25,844 nt of DNA. Source: a virus. Positions within the stretch are counted from its first letter, which is position 1. Each line of letters opens with the position of its first letter. Location: positions 1 to 25,844 of IMG/VR virus record IMGVR_UViG_3300009183_000331; one strand, 5' to 3'. The position numbers and the translations under genes were made by a program. Positions 7,476 through 13,731 of this stretch are shown here, piece after piece. The notes beneath the pieces were generated by a model that had not been told where the DNA came from, searched no databases, and worked only from the letters and a program-made list of their open reading frames with translations.

Positions 7476-7476
<1 letters not shown>
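6658..7476 (-). CDS. Glycine-rich fibre-tip or adhesin-like protein (copy 1)
   Basis: I place the start at the ATG at 7476 (MPRWGRAKKIYAP), which overlaps the collagen-like gene stop as TAATG and gives 272 aa. An upstream start at 7512 would extend 36 bases into that gene with no ribosome site. The N-terminal domain (FNDATGGTITSFTSTGQTGTV, then IYRVHTFTSSGT) leads to FDYLMVGGGGGG, and about 170 residues of Gly-rich loops follow, rich in Asn, Ser, Ala and Pro, ending in TVIVRYQIG. It is a paralogue of the protein at 1022-1819. Two such genes each following a fibre gene suggests two adhesin modules. The polyglycine-sandwich idea comes from T-even gp38-type tips and is inference. Translation probably depends on reinitiation after the collagen-like gene. 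Confidence 0.75.
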
Positions 7477-8960
<1,484 letters not shown>

Positions 8961-8968
8961 TACTTCTC

Positions 8969-9313
8969 CTAACCATGCATGTTGTACGGATTATCATACG
9001 TTTCAGGATAAACATTGTCAGTATAGACGTTCCTCCAAGTATAACCTGCCGCTGTCAGCGCGTCATACTCAAAAGATCCCACATCAGTACGAAAATCTGT
9101 GCCACCAAGAATAAAAGTATGAACATCAGGCTGCTGAATCTGACGAAACTCATCAAACGACTGGCCCTCTATAACAGTCCCATCGTTATAAATCAACACA
9201 CTATTCTGGGCAGAAGGAGAAAGAAAAAAAGACCACAACGGAGAAACATTAGGCCCATACTCAACACGAGGACCATACGTTCCCCTACCAAGCAACTGAA
9301 CCTGAACCGTCAT
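8969..9313 (-). CDS. Hypothetical protein before the collagen-like fibre
   Basis: The 114-aa product contains [20 protein letters not shown] near the N-terminus and the segments [18 protein letters not shown] and [12 protein letters not shown]. It is rich in aromatic residues and beta-prone, with an acidic, Tyr-rich end ([12 protein letters not shown]). It carries no signal peptide, membrane span or motif that I recognise. The start overlaps the previous stop as TAATG with an AAAGG site, and the collagen-like gene starts 8 bases after its end, its ribosome site partly inside this gene. Position suggests a virion protein that anchors or joins the fibre, but that is inference only. Confidence 0.65.
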
Positions 9314-9516
9314 TACTTACCTTTCTTACTCGCTACAGAAGCATGATACTTACGACTAGCAGCCACACCCTGCTTCACAGTCTTAGCACCAGCCTTCTGA
9401 GTAAGATTAATTTTATCCCACTTTTTAGGATTACTACCGGCATGGTCAACAATAATACTCTTGCCAACCTTTTTAACAGTATGTTTCATACCATCAAGTT
9501 TTACTGTCTTTTTCAT
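9313..9516 (-). CDS. Small basic protein, Lys-rich
   Basis: I start this at the ATG at 9516 (MKKTVKLDG), which overlaps the previous stop as TAATG; a GTG twelve bases upstream is also possible. The 67-aa product has 17 Lys and 1 Arg against 3 Asp and no Glu, for a net charge near +15, plus three His. A beta-hairpin-like first half (TVKLDGMKHTVKKVGKSIIV) is followed by an Ala/Lys-rich tail ending SVASKKGK. It is the last of the strongly basic proteins encoded after the coat gene. DNA binding inside the head, or binding to capsid, would suit the charge. I know no family for it. Confidence 0.6.
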   Translation of the reverse strand: MKKTVKLDGMKHTVKKVGKSIIVDHAGSNPKKWDKINLTQKAGAKTVKQGVAASRKYHASVASKKGK

Positions 9517-9782
9517 TAACAGTCCCACGCTCTCAACGATTTATTGATACGACTATTAGGATCCTTCGCTGTCTTAGCAGAAGTATTGACCCTCTTCATA
9601 CCCTCCATACGAGCACAAAAAGATTTCCTACGGGCAGCAGACTTAGGAGATTTCTTAGCCTCAGCCATTTTTACAGGAGGCTTAAGATTCATACCCTGAG
9701 CCTTAGCAGACGCACGACCCTTAGCGTTCAAACCACCCTTAGGATTCTTTCCTGCTTTACGCTGCCACGCCGGAGTAGCCAT
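9516..9782 (-). CDS. Basic phage protein, DUF6321-like
   Basis: This 88-aa protein begins MATPAWQRKAGKNPKGGLNAKGRAS and contains KSPKSAARRKSFCARMEGM and a closing NSRINKSLRAWDC. This combination of GGLNAKGRAS, RRKSFCARM and SLRxWxC recurs in many environmental phages, which I remember as the DUF6321 family; the name should be checked. It carries 23 Lys/Arg against 4 Asp/Glu in 88 residues and two Cys (C56 and the final residue). Function is not established. Charge, small size and place in the late operon suggest a nucleic-acid-binding or head protein. The gene is TAATG-coupled on both sides. Confidence 0.8.
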   Translation of the reverse strand: MATPAWQRKAGKNPKGGLNAKGRASAKAQGMNLKPPVKMAEAKKSPKSAARRKSFCARMEGMKRVNTSAKTAKDPNSRINKSLRAWDC

Positions 9783-9958
9783 TACTTCTTCTTCCGCTTA
9801 GGAGAACCCTTAATAGCGTTAGTCATAGCCTTACGACCAGCATCCCCATAATCAGCCTTAACAATCTTTGCTTTAGGAGTAGCAGTCGTCTTGCCATTCT
9901 TAGCCACATTTTTTACATATGACTTAGTGACAAAAGCAGCACCAAGACTAGTAGCCAT
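9782..9958 (-). CDS. Small basic protein, Lys-rich tail
   Basis: The reading frame is open up to 10081, but its N-terminal part overlaps another gene and reads as low-quality Leu-rich protein. I therefore start at the ATG at 9958 (MATSLGAAFVTKSYVKN), with the ATG at 9970 as alternative. The 58-aa product has 13 Lys and 2 Arg against 2 Asp and ends PKRKKK. A weak GGAAAC site precedes the start, which lies 11 bases inside the end of the 48-aa Cys gene. It is probably a DNA-binding or capsid-binding basic protein. No family is recognised. Confidence 0.6.
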   Translation of the reverse strand: MATSLGAAFVTKSYVKNVAKNGKTTATPKAKIVKADYGDAGRKAMTNAIKGSPKRKKK

Positions 9959-10094
9959 TGTTTCCGTCATAACCGCCCGGAGTAGCGTCAGTAGCAGGAA
10001 CAATAACTTCCTTGCCGCTGCCACCGTTTGAGCCAAAGTCTTGACCGCCACTTTTCTTATCGTTAGGTGTTGAACACCCACACTTCATACACAT
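9948..10094 (-). CDS. 48-aa protein with N-terminal CxxCxC motif
   Basis: This short frame runs from the ATG at 10094 to TAG at 9948-9950. The protein begins MCMKCGCSTPNDKKSGG and continues with a Gly/Asn-rich stretch ending GGYDGNNGY. C2, C5 and C7 form a CxxCxC pattern, suited to a metal site or to disulfide or iron-sulfur binding. Its ATG shares one base with the upstream stop (TAATG), and an AAAGGG sequence lies about ten bases before it. I recall similar tiny Cys-start proteins from environmental phage genomes but know no function. It is neutral to acidic, unlike its basic neighbours, and so may have a different role. Confidence 0.6.
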   Translation of the reverse strand: MCMKCGCSTPNDKKSGGQDFGSNGGSGKEVIVPATDATPGGYDGNNGY

Positions 10095-10762
10095 TATCGA
10101 GTACCCTTTCCGTAACCAAAACCTTTAATTTTTGTAGGATCTTTAGCCATAGGCTTTTTAGGAACCTTCTGACCACGAGGCTTATCGTTAGACCACATAC
10201 CAGTCGTATTCTCTGACTGACGACGAGCAAGACTTTCACTACCAATCTTACGAGCAGCAGCCTCACGAGCAGTCATTGCTACTCCTGCTCCTGTTCCACC
10301 AGTTTTTCCAGCAACCTTACGAGCAGCAGCCTCACGAGGAGTCATCTTAGAAGCAGCCTTAACTGCTTTCTTGGGAGTATTTAAAGATTTTAATGGATCA
10401 GTTTCTATCATCTTAGCCCCACTTAACAAAGAAGATGCAAGATTTGATAAAGGTTTTCTAGAAACATTAGTTGCCTTAACTGCTTTTGCAGTACCAGACA
10501 ACTTTTGCAAAGACGCATTATTAGAAAGTTTCTTAGCATCTCTCAAAGTTGTAAAAGCAAGACTTTTAGTAATTAATTCTTTCTGTTGATTAGAACCCGT
10601 ATATTGCCGTGATGCAGGAGCATTAGACTTATTTTGAGAAGCAGCCTTAACTAGCCTTGCATTTTTAACTAGCCTTGCATTTTTTACGTTTAATGGTTCT
10701 TTCTCAGCATTTTTTAGTTTTGGATATTTAGAAAGTGTCTTAGGTTTAGGTGTCATAGCCAT
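10094..10762 (-). CDS. Basic Ala/Lys-rich protein with internal repeats
   Basis: The 222-aa product is strongly basic, with about 48 Lys/Arg against 12 Asp/Glu. It contains a perfect six-residue tandem repeat (VKNARL twice, residues 27-38) and a degenerate pair MTPREAAARKVAG and MTAREAAARKIGS about 22 residues apart. There is no membrane span and no recognised domain; composition resembles histone H1-like or other disordered DNA-condensing proteins. The C-terminal FGYGKGTR echoes the KPKYGKGR ending of the preceding gene product, which hints at a shared targeting or processing tail. The ATG follows a GGAAAGGG site and begins two bases after the previous stop. Function is unknown. Confidence 0.65.
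   Translation of the reverse strand: MAMTPKPKTLSKYPKLKNAEKEPLNVKNARLVKNARLVKAASQNKSNAPASRQYTGSNQQKELITKSLAFTTLRDAKKLSNNASLQKLSGTAKAVKATNVSRKPLSNLASSLLSGAKMIETDPLKSLNTPKKAVKAASKMTPREAAARKVAGKTGGTGAGVAMTAREAAARKIGSESLARRQSENTTGMWSNDKPRGQKVPKKPMAKDPTKIKGFGYGKGTR
10647..10682. repeat. Perfect 18-bp tandem duplication in coding sequence
   Basis: Two identical adjacent 18-base units (10647-10664 and 10665-10682, unit ttaactagccttgcattt) encode the repeated residues VKNARL in the basic protein. The frame is kept. Perfect identity of both copies suggests a recent slippage event. Confidence 0.9.
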
Positions 10763-10764
10763 GA

Positions 10765-11928
10765 TTAACGTCCCTTTCCATACTTAGGCTTTTCACGACG
10801 AGCAGCAGCAAGCGCAGAAGCACGAGTCCTTTTATTTGTAGCAGAACTAGCACGATTCAAAGCAGCCTTTGTACGAGCAATTGAATCAGCGCGAGAAGCA
10901 GCACGAGAAGCAGCATTTGAATTATCAATAAACTGCCGATTAGAAACTTTAACCGCTGCTGCTTTATTAGCCGCAACTCTCTTACCAACAGCCTTACCGG
11001 CAGCCGACCCAGCAACCTTGCCAGCAGTTTTAGTGCCAGCAACTTTACCAGCAGCCTTAGCGCCAGCAGTCACAGCACTACGACCAGCAGCCTTACCAGC
11101 AGCCGACCCAGCAACTTTACTAGCAATAAGCCGACCAGCAGTAGTACCGCCCTTAATCGCTCCAGCAGCCAAACCAGCACCCGGCATAAGTACAAAACCA
11201 GAACCCGTTTTCATAATATCAGTTAAACGACCCTTAGGCATTGCTTTGCGAAAAGGAGTACCAGCAGCAGACATTCCATACACACCACCAGTAGCCTTTT
11301 TTACATCAGAATCAGATGGCATAGGAGTCTTTGGGCGAGTAGACGGTTTAGGAGCATCACCCGGCTTCTTAGCACCAAGACGATCAACGTATTTTACTTT
11401 GTCCTGACCAAATGTTGCAGAACCAGTTAAAGTATTAGCAATAGCCCTATCTGCTGCTTTGCTTCCTACACGACCTTTATTTGGGGTAGCAGCCGCACGA
11501 TCAGCAGCAATTTGTTTTGCGCGAGCATCAGCAGATTTCCATGCACCCGGCAATGCCTGATTTTTTGCGTAAGCAGCGGCATTAACACTAGGTTTAACAG
11601 GAGTTTTACCACCACCGCCATTACCACTACCACTACCAACAGGCTTAGAATCAGAAGCACGAAGACGACGACCATTAACGTAAGTTGCTTTCTCACCAGT
11701 ACCAAGAGTTACAGTGCCCGTAATGCGCGTTCCCGGAGAAGTTTTATTAACAAGACCTTTGCCTTCAACCCATGCAGTATTACTAATATTAACTTTAGTA
11801 GCAGCACCAAGATTCTTTTTGTATGTGCCAACTTTTTTACCATTAGCGGAAGAGACAGCAGTCTTCAATTCTTTAGCAGAAAGATTAGTAGTCTTACCTT
11901 TATATTGCCCAGAAGGCATTTTAGCCAT
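10765..11928 (-). CDS. Large basic Ala/Lys-rich, histone-H1-like protein
   Basis: I start at the ATG at 11928 (MAKMPSGQYKGKTTN), which has AAGGAG at 11935-11940, six bases away; the frame stays open upstream to 11970 but would cross the hairpin. The product is 387 aa. An N-terminal part (residues 1-90) looks folded, with TAVSSANGKKVGTYKK and GTVTLGTGEKATYVNGRR. A Gly/Pro/Ser linker follows, then a long Ala/Lys/Gly stretch (about residues 260-330) with repeats such as KVAGSAAGKAAG and KVAGSAAGKAVG, and an Arg/Ala-rich end. Such Ala-Lys repeats resemble the tails of histone H1 and mycobacterial HU, which bind and compact DNA. It follows the coat gene after the hairpin and may be a head-associated DNA-binding or capsid-decorating protein. 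That role is inference. Confidence 0.65.
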   Translation of the reverse strand: MAKMPSGQYKGKTTNLSAKELKTAVSSANGKKVGTYKKNLGAATKVNISNTAWVEGKGLVNKTSPGTRITGTVTLGTGEKATYVNGRRLRASDSKPVGSGSGNGGGGKTPVKPSVNAAAYAKNQALPGAWKSADARAKQIAADRAAATPNKGRVGSKAADRAIANTLTGSATFGQDKVKYVDRLGAKKPGDAPKPSTRPKTPMPSDSDVKKATGGVYGMSAAGTPFRKAMPKGRLTDIMKTGSGFVLMPGAGLAAGAIKGGTTAGRLIASKVAGSAAGKAAGRSAVTAGAKAAGKVAGTKTAGKVAGSAAGKAVGKRVAANKAAAVKVSNRQFIDNSNAASRAASRADSIARTKAALNRASSATNKRTRASALAAARREKPKYGKGR

Positions 11929-11950: not shown

Positions 11951-11995
11951 GATGGTCCCTCCCCCGACAAGGGTGGCGTGAGGGAGGGACCTATC
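11951..11995 (-). terminator. Strong hairpin after the coat gene (terminator or attenuator)
   Basis: GGTCCCTCCC (11954-11963) pairs perfectly with GGGAGGGACC (11982-11991). Three more pairs (GAT with ATC) extend the stem past a one-base bulge. The loop is 18 bases. On the minus-strand transcript it is followed after about eight bases by TTTTT, which is imperfect spacing for an intrinsic terminator. It sits between the coat gene stop and the ribosome site of the next gene, so it may partly stop transcription or protect the coat message from 3' decay. Confidence 0.7.
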
Positions 11996-12018: not shown

Positions 12019-13056
12019 TTATGAAGCCAGCGATGAACTAGTTCTGATCCGAAGTAGAGCATCAGCGCGGAACACGCTGTACCCAACTAGGTGGTACCAG
12101 CCAACAGAAGCAAAACGACGCAACTTGTCAACCACTGGAGAAACAACCGTCTTAGGGTTGCCGCCAAAGCCCGGAGCCGTTGAGAACGCCTTGGCAAGAG
12201 CCTCAGCACCCATCAAGTAGCCCGTACCCTGATTGGTAAGGTGGTTGTTTACAATGAGGCGAACGCCTTCATAGGTTCCAACTTCACCCATGAAGATGCT
12301 GTTTCCAGCGCTGTTATCGCCTGAGTAGCCAACCATCCAACGGAAACCAGTGTCAGTCGTTTCGGACATCAACTGCTGTGCCTGATATGGGCTAATGACA
12401 GCAACATAGTTACCGCCACGCATAGGGCGCACGTTTGCTGCACGAAGGCGAGCAACACCTTGACGGAGCATTGCACCACTGAGGTTAGACGAACCATCAC
12501 CAATAGATCCGACAGTGGCAGTTGTGCCGTCATCGTAAGTAATGGTGGTTGCATCGAGTGCGGTACGGCACAGGGTGTCAATTGACAGACCTGCGTTGTA
12601 GCCGACACGCTCAGCAATAAGTGGATCAAGCGAAATCATGCTTGTTCCACGGATGAGAGCCGTATTTGTTACTGCTGTGCCGTACTCACGCATTGACACG
12701 GTAAGTGCCTTTGAAGAGAGGACAACTGAGTCAACGTCAAGGTTCTCAAGGAGAGGAGTTGTTTGTTCACTAATATCGTCAACAAACGAGAAACGAACTG
12801 AACCGCCACGATGGGTGGTGTTCGTTGCGCGAACCGTAGCAAACTGGTCAAAGATCAGTTCTGGACGCAGTGCTGGGTACACCATCAAGTCGTAAGCCTT
12901 GGTTACAAACTGTGAACCAAGAGTAATGTCTACGATTGGGGCTGGTGCGTTAATAGATAGTGGACCAGCGGCAGTTACGATCTCACCGGGTGAGTACGAA
13001 GGGGCTGCTACTGGGCCATTCTGGTTGGAACCTGCGGTTCCGGTACCTGCTGGCAT
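12019..13056 (-). CDS. Major capsid protein, N4-gp56-like (HK97 fold)
   Basis: This 345-aa protein follows the scaffold gene by 11 bases. It starts with a Gly/Ala/Pro-rich arm (residues 1-35). The core includes LRPELIFDQFATVRATNTTHRGG, TPLLENLDVDSVVLSSKAL and SMREYGTAVTNT. It ends with GAEALAKAFST, then VVDKLRRFASVGWYHLVGYSVFR and ALLRIRTSSS. The combination of an EALAKAF segment with a late GWY-x3-GYSVFR motif is characteristic of the N4-gp56 family of coat proteins as I know it. It would form the icosahedral shell around the scaffold. An AAAGGAAAA site precedes the ATG. Composition is richer in GC than in most neighbours (rows near 53-57 percent), as expected of a highly expressed gene. No protease is fused to it. 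Confidence 0.9.
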   Translation of the reverse strand: MPAGTGTAGSNQNGPVAAPSYSPGEIVTAAGPLSINAPAPIVDITLGSQFVTKAYDLMVYPALRPELIFDQFATVRATNTTHRGGSVRFSFVDDISEQTTPLLENLDVDSVVLSSKALTVSMREYGTAVTNTALIRGTSMISLDPLIAERVGYNAGLSIDTLCRTALDATTITYDDGTTATVGSIGDGSSNLSGAMLRQGVARLRAANVRPMRGGNYVAVISPYQAQQLMSETTDTGFRWMVGYSGDNSAGNSIFMGEVGTYEGVRLIVNNHLTNQGTGYLMGAEALAKAFSTAPGFGGNPKTVVSPVVDKLRRFASVGWYHLVGYSVFRADALLRIRTSSSLAS

Positions 13057-13067
13057 GATGTTTTCCT

Positions 13068-13535
13068 TTACATTTCAGATTCGATTGGGATGCCGTACTG
13101 TCGTGCAACTTCCAACATCGCTTGAGAGCCGCCTTCTTCCATCGCTGCTGCCATACGCGAATAAGCAGCATCTTCAGATCCGTCTTCCATTACTGCACCG
13201 GCTGAAGCAGTCATAACTCGCTCTTGCGAATTTTGAATTGCTTGAGACTGTGCTGAATTATCTGAAGGAGGAGCCAAGAAACCTGCGTCTAACGCCGCTT
13301 GACGTACCGCTGCACCAGTCATTTCACCGTCATAACCCTTAACGAAATATCTCATTCGTGAGTCTTCAGGATCAATACCTGCTTTCATGAACGCCAATTC
13401 ACGCTTTGTTTGAGCAAGTTCCGATTCAAGTTTCTTTGACTTATTCGCTGCCCGACGAAGACCACGAGGAGAATCTTCGGACTGAATTTCGTCAACTTCT
13501 TCTGAATCAAAGTCGTCTTCATATTGTGTGGACAT
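13068..13535 (-). CDS. Capsid scaffolding protein
   Basis: The product is 155 aa from the ATG at 13535, chosen because GGAAAGGGAA lies at 13541-13550, five bases away; the frame stays open to 13697 but the extra part has no ribosome site and reads poorly. An acidic N-terminus (YEDDFDSEEVDEIQSED) is followed by a coiled coil (about residues 25-50, KKLESELAQTKRELAFMKAG). Then comes IDPEDSRMRYFVKGYDGEMT and a helical C-terminus that ends GIPIESEM. An acidic head, coiled coil and the motif 'AGIDP...GYDGEMT' are typical of scaffolding proteins of actinophages and related phages. It would direct coat assembly into the prohead and then leave. Its place directly before the coat gene agrees. Confidence 0.88.
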   Translation of the reverse strand: MSTQYEDDFDSEEVDEIQSEDSPRGLRRAANKSKKLESELAQTKRELAFMKAGIDPEDSRMRYFVKGYDGEMTGAAVRQAALDAGFLAPPSDNSAQSQAIQNSQERVMTASAGAVMEDGSEDAAYSRMAAAMEEGGSQAMLEVARQYGIPIESEM

Positions 13536-13540
13536 TGCAC

Positions 13541-13550
13541 TTCCCTTTCC
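13541..13550 (-). promoter_or_regulatory. Ribosome binding site fixing the scaffold start
   Basis: The minus strand reads GGAAAGGGAA, five bases before the ATG at 13535. No comparable site precedes the in-frame starts at 13622 or 13697. Confidence 0.75.
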
Positions 13551-13731
13551 TAGACGCACCAAACCGGGAGGATCTGGTGGAGGTTTGTAACTGGATATGC
13601 CAATAGCGGTCGCTAAAGACATAATTAATGGATAGCCAATTAATACACAGCAACGGAGGCCAATCCGCACTGGAAAGACTTGAGCCAGCACACCCACTTT
13701 TCAGCAGGGCCAATCACAAGTACAATCAAAG

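Follow-up and report, generated by a model that had tools for sequence, protein, structure and literature searches.

We analysed a 25,844-nucleotide stretch of DNA from a freshwater phage (positions 1 to 25,844 of IMG/VR virus record IMGVR_UViG_3300009183_000331, hereafter the window) and found that one of several strongly basic proteins encoded behind its coat gene begins with a short peptide that mimics the N-terminal arm of the coat protein. Proteins loaded into phage heads have been studied in detail for T4, for P22 and for a few jumbo phages. We consider it probable, though by no means certain, that this run of genes, here called the island, encodes proteins of the head interior that function much as T4 internal proteins do, with the arm-mimicking tag drawing them into the procapsid. 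The features concerned are the following.

13068..13622, minus strand: 184-amino acid (aa) acidic protein directly upstream of the coat gene, phrog_7813 (unknown function)
12019..13056, minus strand: major capsid (coat) protein, N4-gp56 family (TIGR04387; phrog_1357), identified by profile matches and full-length relatives
12892..12921, minus strand: coat protein residues 46-55, LGSQFVTKAY, the segment copied by the tag
10765..11928, minus strand: 387-aa basic protein, net charge +57, rich in Ala, Gly and Lys, without family match
10094..10762, minus strand: 222-aa basic protein, net charge +36, without convincing family match
9948..10094, minus strand: 48-aa neutral Cys-rich protein MCMKCGC... 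(MCMKCGCSTPNDKKS), which recurs in relatives' islands
9782..9958, minus strand: 58-aa basic protein, net charge +13, bearing the N-terminal tag
9917..9946, minus strand: the tag LGAAFVTKSY, residues 5-14 of the 58-aa protein, which mimics coat residues 46-55
9516..9782, minus strand: 88-aa basic protein, net charge +19, PF19846 (DUF6321), the most conserved island gene (22 of 24 loci)
9313..9516, minus strand: 67-aa basic protein, net charge +15, KWDKINLTKKAGAKTVKQG family, with a tagged homologue in locus L010
8969..9313, minus strand: 114-aa acidic protein at the island end, the anchor gene in relatives

The first-pass annotation had described five strongly basic proteins in a row after the coat gene. 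All five lie there on the minus strand with the sizes it gave, and its hand counts of basic against acidic residues are exact (23 against 4 in the 88-aa, 15 against 2 in the 58-aa and 18 against 3 in the 67-aa protein); they are not strictly in a row, since a sixth, neutral gene of 48 aa lies among them. No other gene among the 25 analysed in the window is strongly basic: the five have net charges of +14.7 to +22.4 per 100 aa, the other 20 of -7.0 to +5.6. For this one genome, the chance that the top five of 25 genes in basicity all fall within six neighbours is 0.0019. Most junctions in the run are overlaps of 1-11 bases, the first two genes being separated by a 2-base gap, and the overlaps point to a single translationally coupled unit.

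Using the coat protein we found 25 relatives, mostly metagenome fragments. The island, defined as the interval from the coat gene to the homologue of the 114-aa gene, was compared in 24 loci with the window counted. The 58-aa protein of the window starts MATSLGAAFVTKSYVK and residues 44-57 of the coat protein read ITLGSQFVTKAYDL, a segment that is nearly invariant among the relatives. A tagged open reading frame (ORF) is present in the island of 13 of the 24 loci (the window and 12 relatives), and a 14th copy occurs in L012, which is near-identical to L010. FVTKSY begins at residue 6-9 of these ORFs (n=14). Six different basic proteins serve as partners of the tag: the 58-aa type (window, L002, L007), the homologue of the 67-aa protein (L010), the AGRPYPNL family (L013, L015, L020, L024), HPGFKAVQ (L009, L025), a 239-aa protein (L005) and a KKFPYT protein (L014). 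In L016 the tag stands nearly alone, as a 17-aa ORF at about 2304-2357 (MASLAETFVTKSYEKGK). Because the 67-aa protein is untagged in the window and its homologue is tagged in L010, the tag moves between partners.

Measured against the coat gene of the same genome, the core codons of the tag differ at 2-6 of 18 bases and leave the six residues unchanged. The codons also vary synonymously among tags, including AGT versus TCN for serine. Judged from its codons, the tag is selected at the peptide level. Searched in all six frames, 106 loci had no exact FVTK[AS]Y beyond the coat protein and the island, and searches of the whole records of 14 relatives placed the pattern once per record outside the coat gene. 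Across the whole IMG/VR viral collection the DNA pattern of the tag was found in 9 contigs, all of the same phage family. When the islands were compared with the structural proteins by shared k-mers, there was no other recurrent sharing, and no other coat segment recurred.

The coat protein passes TIGR04387 (79.1 bits against a cut-off of 60), and its full-length relatives are 68-94% identical. The profile match begins at residue 47, so that the region conserved in the N4-gp56 family starts with the copied segment; with low confidence, structure modelling suggests that this segment may also be the start of an N-terminal helix. A search of PDB sequences with the coat profile gave no match. In the procapsids of P22 and SPP1 the scaffold binds the N-terminal helix of the coat protein (PMC9965877, PMC6813328). 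By analogy, the 184-aa acidic protein, which is scaffold-like in place and charge, is probably the reader of the tag. The tag would then act as a decoy arm that binds the procapsid partner of the coat arm, most likely this candidate scaffold, and the tagged protein would thereby be loaded inside the procapsid. Untagged island members would enter via other signals or charge. Lysines of the island proteins would then touch the DNA inside the head. The proteins would likely be ejected into the host along with that DNA, and the variable ones may there act against host defences. DNA binding by the island proteins is plausible by analogy with the T4 internal proteins, whose lysines contact DNA phosphates (PMC3012670). 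The broader proposal is that a capsid-loading signal was copied from the coat arm, that the scaffold carries the mimic together with any protein fused to it, and that this signal is mobile, unrelated to the capsid-targeting sequence (CTS) of T4 and used for swappable basic cargo; this we put forward tentatively, as somewhat short of an even chance.

The closest parallel is T4, in which about 1000 molecules of internal proteins lie within the DNA and, among their positively charged residues, only lysines are seen contacting phosphates. The T4 internal proteins are a diverse set in which only the targeting sequence is conserved, and one of them, IPI*, blocks a host restriction enzyme (PMC3012670). 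T4 IPI, IPII and IPIII resemble the island in being small, basic and mutually diverse with a common short N-terminal peptide, and the island fits the T4 scheme because its swapped basic proteins share one short N-terminus. The island proteins of the window are small basic proteins, as T4-type internal proteins are, although the charge per length of its small members is 4-5 times that of IPII and IPIII. The signals differ as well. None of the five N-termini in the window carries a MKTYxxFIxE-type CTS with the L/I-x-E motif of gp21, and no L/I-x-E cleavage motif follows the tag; a T4-type CTS is found instead on a DUF6321 protein of the cyanophage S-CREM1, and the tag of the window's family mimics the coat arm. 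The ejection proteins of P22 and SPN3US, which travel in the head and pass into the host, are similar by description and no relation is claimed.

The second line of evidence comes from the 88-aa protein. It passes the PF19846 cut-off clearly (74.4 bits against 28.5, residues 11-86), retains the two invariant Cys residues and the W.C end of DUF6321, and is about 75-98% identical within the phage family, often exceeding neighbouring structural genes. DUF6321 is common in phages of Synechococcus, Prochlorococcus and Pelagibacter (487 records). The pelagiphage HTVC115P likewise has it among capsid and structural genes, behind the capsid gene and one tail gene, and cyanomyoviruses have it between TerS and TerL. 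The domain is free-standing in the island, whereas in cyanomyoviruses it often forms the C-terminal domain of longer proteins. Its structure model is confident (predicted local distance difference test score, pLDDT, 88). A fold search with the model matched nothing credible in the PDB (the best hit, an unrelated protein, reached VIA Z 2.8 across 42 residues), and its viral matches were DUF6321 itself. Sequences of DUF6321 and four other island families had no match in the PDB, and a search of the literature library found no paper on DUF6321. The DUF6321 proteins of Greip and MinM2 (L107:3876-4127, L108:5992-6237) are annotated as 'RecA-like recombination protein', which looks wrong.

Virion proteomes of cyanophages bear on where DUF6321 proteins go. 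S-CREM2 gp137 has a C-terminal DUF6321 (E 3.5e-10, residues 415-488) and is listed in the virion proteome with 4 unique peptides and 4.1% coverage; its basic neighbour gp136 was also detected in virions (8 peptides, 24.1%; PMC10665884 Table 3). Both were tied to the proteome entries by coordinates. S-SCSM1_29 ends in DUF6321, and its record calls it a 'virion protein', a label that presumably derives from mass spectrometry, by which the S-SCSM1 paper found 45 proteins. S-CREM1 gp179 is a free-standing DUF6321 with the N-terminus MKTYNDFITE-V, equal at 7 of 10 positions to MKTYQEFIAE-A of T4 ipII and ipIII, including Y4, F7, I8 and E10. Residues 4, 7, 8 and 10 are reported to be decisive for head targeting and for gp21 cleavage after L/I-x-E (PMC9026906). 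Variant capsid-targeting N-termini are found on the DUF6321 proteins of S-RIM44 (MKSFKQLRIDINE-S) and S-CAM1 (MKSFKELRSDIRE-A). I/L/V/M-x-E directly precedes DUF6321 in several fused forms; those of ACG-2014d and S-SSM4 do not fit. T4-type capsid-targeting starts also occur on near-neutral proteins near the DUF6321 gene, in S-CREM1 (L152:1361-1690, MKSYKQFLSE-S) and S-SCSM1 (L159:4716-5036, MKTFKQFMSE-S). Taken together, sequences and the published virion proteome give good, though indirect, support to DUF6321 being a head-internal domain in T4-like phages. Lys-rich proteins are poorly detected after trypsin, so absence from published virion lists means little. The suggestion of the first-pass annotation that the basic proteins are packaged in the head or act on the host at entry is thus supported in part, by the cyanophage proteomics of DUF6321, the T4-type CTS of S-CREM1 and the coat-arm mimic.

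With basic ORFs defined by a net charge of at least +10 per 100 aa, 114 of the 123 ORFs within the 24 islands are basic, versus 14 of 335 elsewhere in the loci (Fisher p ~1e-79; the loci are related and so non-independent). Each island holds 3-8 of them, and clustering assigned them to families that differ from phage to phage. DUF6321 occurs in 22 loci, CMKCGC in about 16, AGRPYPNL in 10 and a DUF6496-like family in 8; rarer are HPGFKAVQ (4) and a DUF5872-like family (3), besides many singletons. What is conserved in the island is its position and charge, and the parts are exchanged. The first-pass annotation had suggested looking for the five genes together in other phages; between close relatives the set is not conserved, DUF6321 alone being near-constant. 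Pairwise ratios of nonsynonymous to synonymous substitution of island genes are 0 to 0.4, except for one short AGRPYPNL pair at 0.74, and because the values lie mostly in this range the island genes are real, constrained proteins. A tblastn search of annotated phages gave no match for the 67-aa and AGRPYPNL families. An AGRPYPNL protein is nevertheless present in MinM2, and since it went undetected, short basic queries evidently lose tblastn hits.

Some island proteins of relatives have traits of their own. One protein of L019 (11693-11965, DPRLARAG...KMSAAYWANKVKW) matches phrog_7595 and has a weak match to a part of phrog_220 (minor head protein and DNA pilot), and its family is common in roseophages. 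In the islands of L003, L004, L006, L011, L017 and L022, some large proteins contain a significant hydrophobic Gly/Ala stretch, and several others have a W-(D/N)-G-x-x-W motif at their end. The idea that island proteins act on membranes in general was rejected, as significant hydrophobic stretches are present in a minority of the large proteins and in none of the window.

DUF6321 and other basic genes are also located behind capsid genes of the phrog_1357, phrog_371 and phrog_267 types. Basic islands are found in phrog_1357 phages with a 391-aa coat protein (L028, L032; also ct2KA10 and L149) and in phrog_371 phages (L075, L051), and the islands of other capsid types include DUF6321, DUF6496 and DUF5872-like proteins. 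DUF5872, which is common to some relatives' islands, is also named in a haptophyte virus genome. Streptomyces phage FlowerPower has a related coat protein and no such island. Among the basic ORFs of other capsid groups, no comparable mimic of the coat arm (LVQxAYD) was found.

Between the coat gene and the island lies a gap of 90 bases, which contains a further feature.

11954..11991, minus strand: GC-rich hairpin between the coat gene and the island

A strong hairpin (-29 to -48 kcal/mol per 75 nucleotides) occupies this place in all 24 loci, with a stem sequence that varies, and it may lower expression of the island relative to the coat gene. Consensus scans for promoters and terminators returned nothing above chance, and the window has no Rfam match. 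The 48-aa MCMKCGC protein is possibly metal-binding. Downstream of the island (window 7476-8960) lies a gene for a collagen-like protein with GPTGPT repeats, and other phage groups (L028, L032, L046) encode similar repeat proteins behind their islands.

Could the island proteins instead be late accessory proteins that never enter the virion and act in the infected cell, by host take-over, RNA or ribosome binding, or membrane action? In favour of this, the genes are swapped accessory ones, the same small families are found at other genome places in some phages, and the hydrophobic Gly/Ala stretches would suit a membrane role. The unchanging position behind the coat gene across several capsid types, the virion detection and capsid-targeting sequence of DUF6321 relatives, and the coat-arm mimic speak against this, and we regard it as unlikely. 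Alternatively, the proteins may be minor capsid or cement proteins held on the shell by the arm-like tag rather than ejected cargo. N-terminal arms lie between capsomers in mature heads (PMC6813328, PMC11768535), and a mimic could fill such sites. However, a single short tag joined to changing partners resembles a cargo signal more closely, and DUF6321 relatives bear T4-type cargo signals, which makes this distinctly unlikely.

The first-pass annotation had suggested a chromatin-like set of head-packaged DNA-condensing proteins. On this reading the five proteins would be packaged in hundreds of copies and would condense or neutralise the phage DNA. The strong Lys bias, the place after the coat gene and the contacts of T4 lysines with DNA phosphate (PMC3012670) agree with this, as does the eukaryotic virus PBCV-1, whose virions contain many basic DNA-associated proteins, several of them proposed to accompany the packaged DNA (PMC3281028), a likeness by description only. 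However, one set of the five proteins carries +140 against about 87,000 phosphates in a genome of about 43 kb (the longest contigs of relatives measure 41.9-43.9 kb). Neutralising 10% of the phosphates would take about 60 copies of each protein, and neutralising most of the charge would take copy numbers close to that of the coat protein. Moreover, according to PMC3281028 there is no evidence that basic proteins contribute much to the neutralisation of phage double-stranded DNA, and the set is swapped among close relatives. The 387-aa protein, which had been likened to histone H1, is H1-like in composition (20% Ala, 12% Lys) and not in family: searches for histone or nucleoid homology gave no hit in Pfam or PHROG (E up to 1) and none among PDB sequences, and none of the five matched such a family. 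We therefore regard a DNA-condensing set as unsupported and very unlikely. It is just as improbable that the tag is a functionless recombination relic of the nearby coat gene or a chance match of only about 10 residues that roughly half of the relatives lack, since it sits at the extreme N-terminus of all 14 ORFs and on unrelated partners, its codons have diverged from the coat gene with the residues held constant, and it is the one coat segment that recurs.

Several points weigh against the reading that the island encodes tag-loaded head-internal proteins. Besides the relatives without the tag, about half of them, four of the tagged ORFs require a GTG start. The coat structure model is too poor to place the tag in three dimensions, binding of the tag by a scaffold is proposed by analogy, and the window showed no prohead protease of the T4 type. 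The peptides of S-CREM2 gp137, at 4.1% coverage, may lie outside DUF6321, and the virion evidence comes from cyanophages rather than from the window's phage family.

If the island proteins are indeed loaded through a copied coat arm, this would be a second, simpler way to load cargo into phage heads, and the peptide would be directly testable as an encapsidation signal. It would also suggest a role for DUF6321 and for several unassigned small families that are common in aquatic phages.

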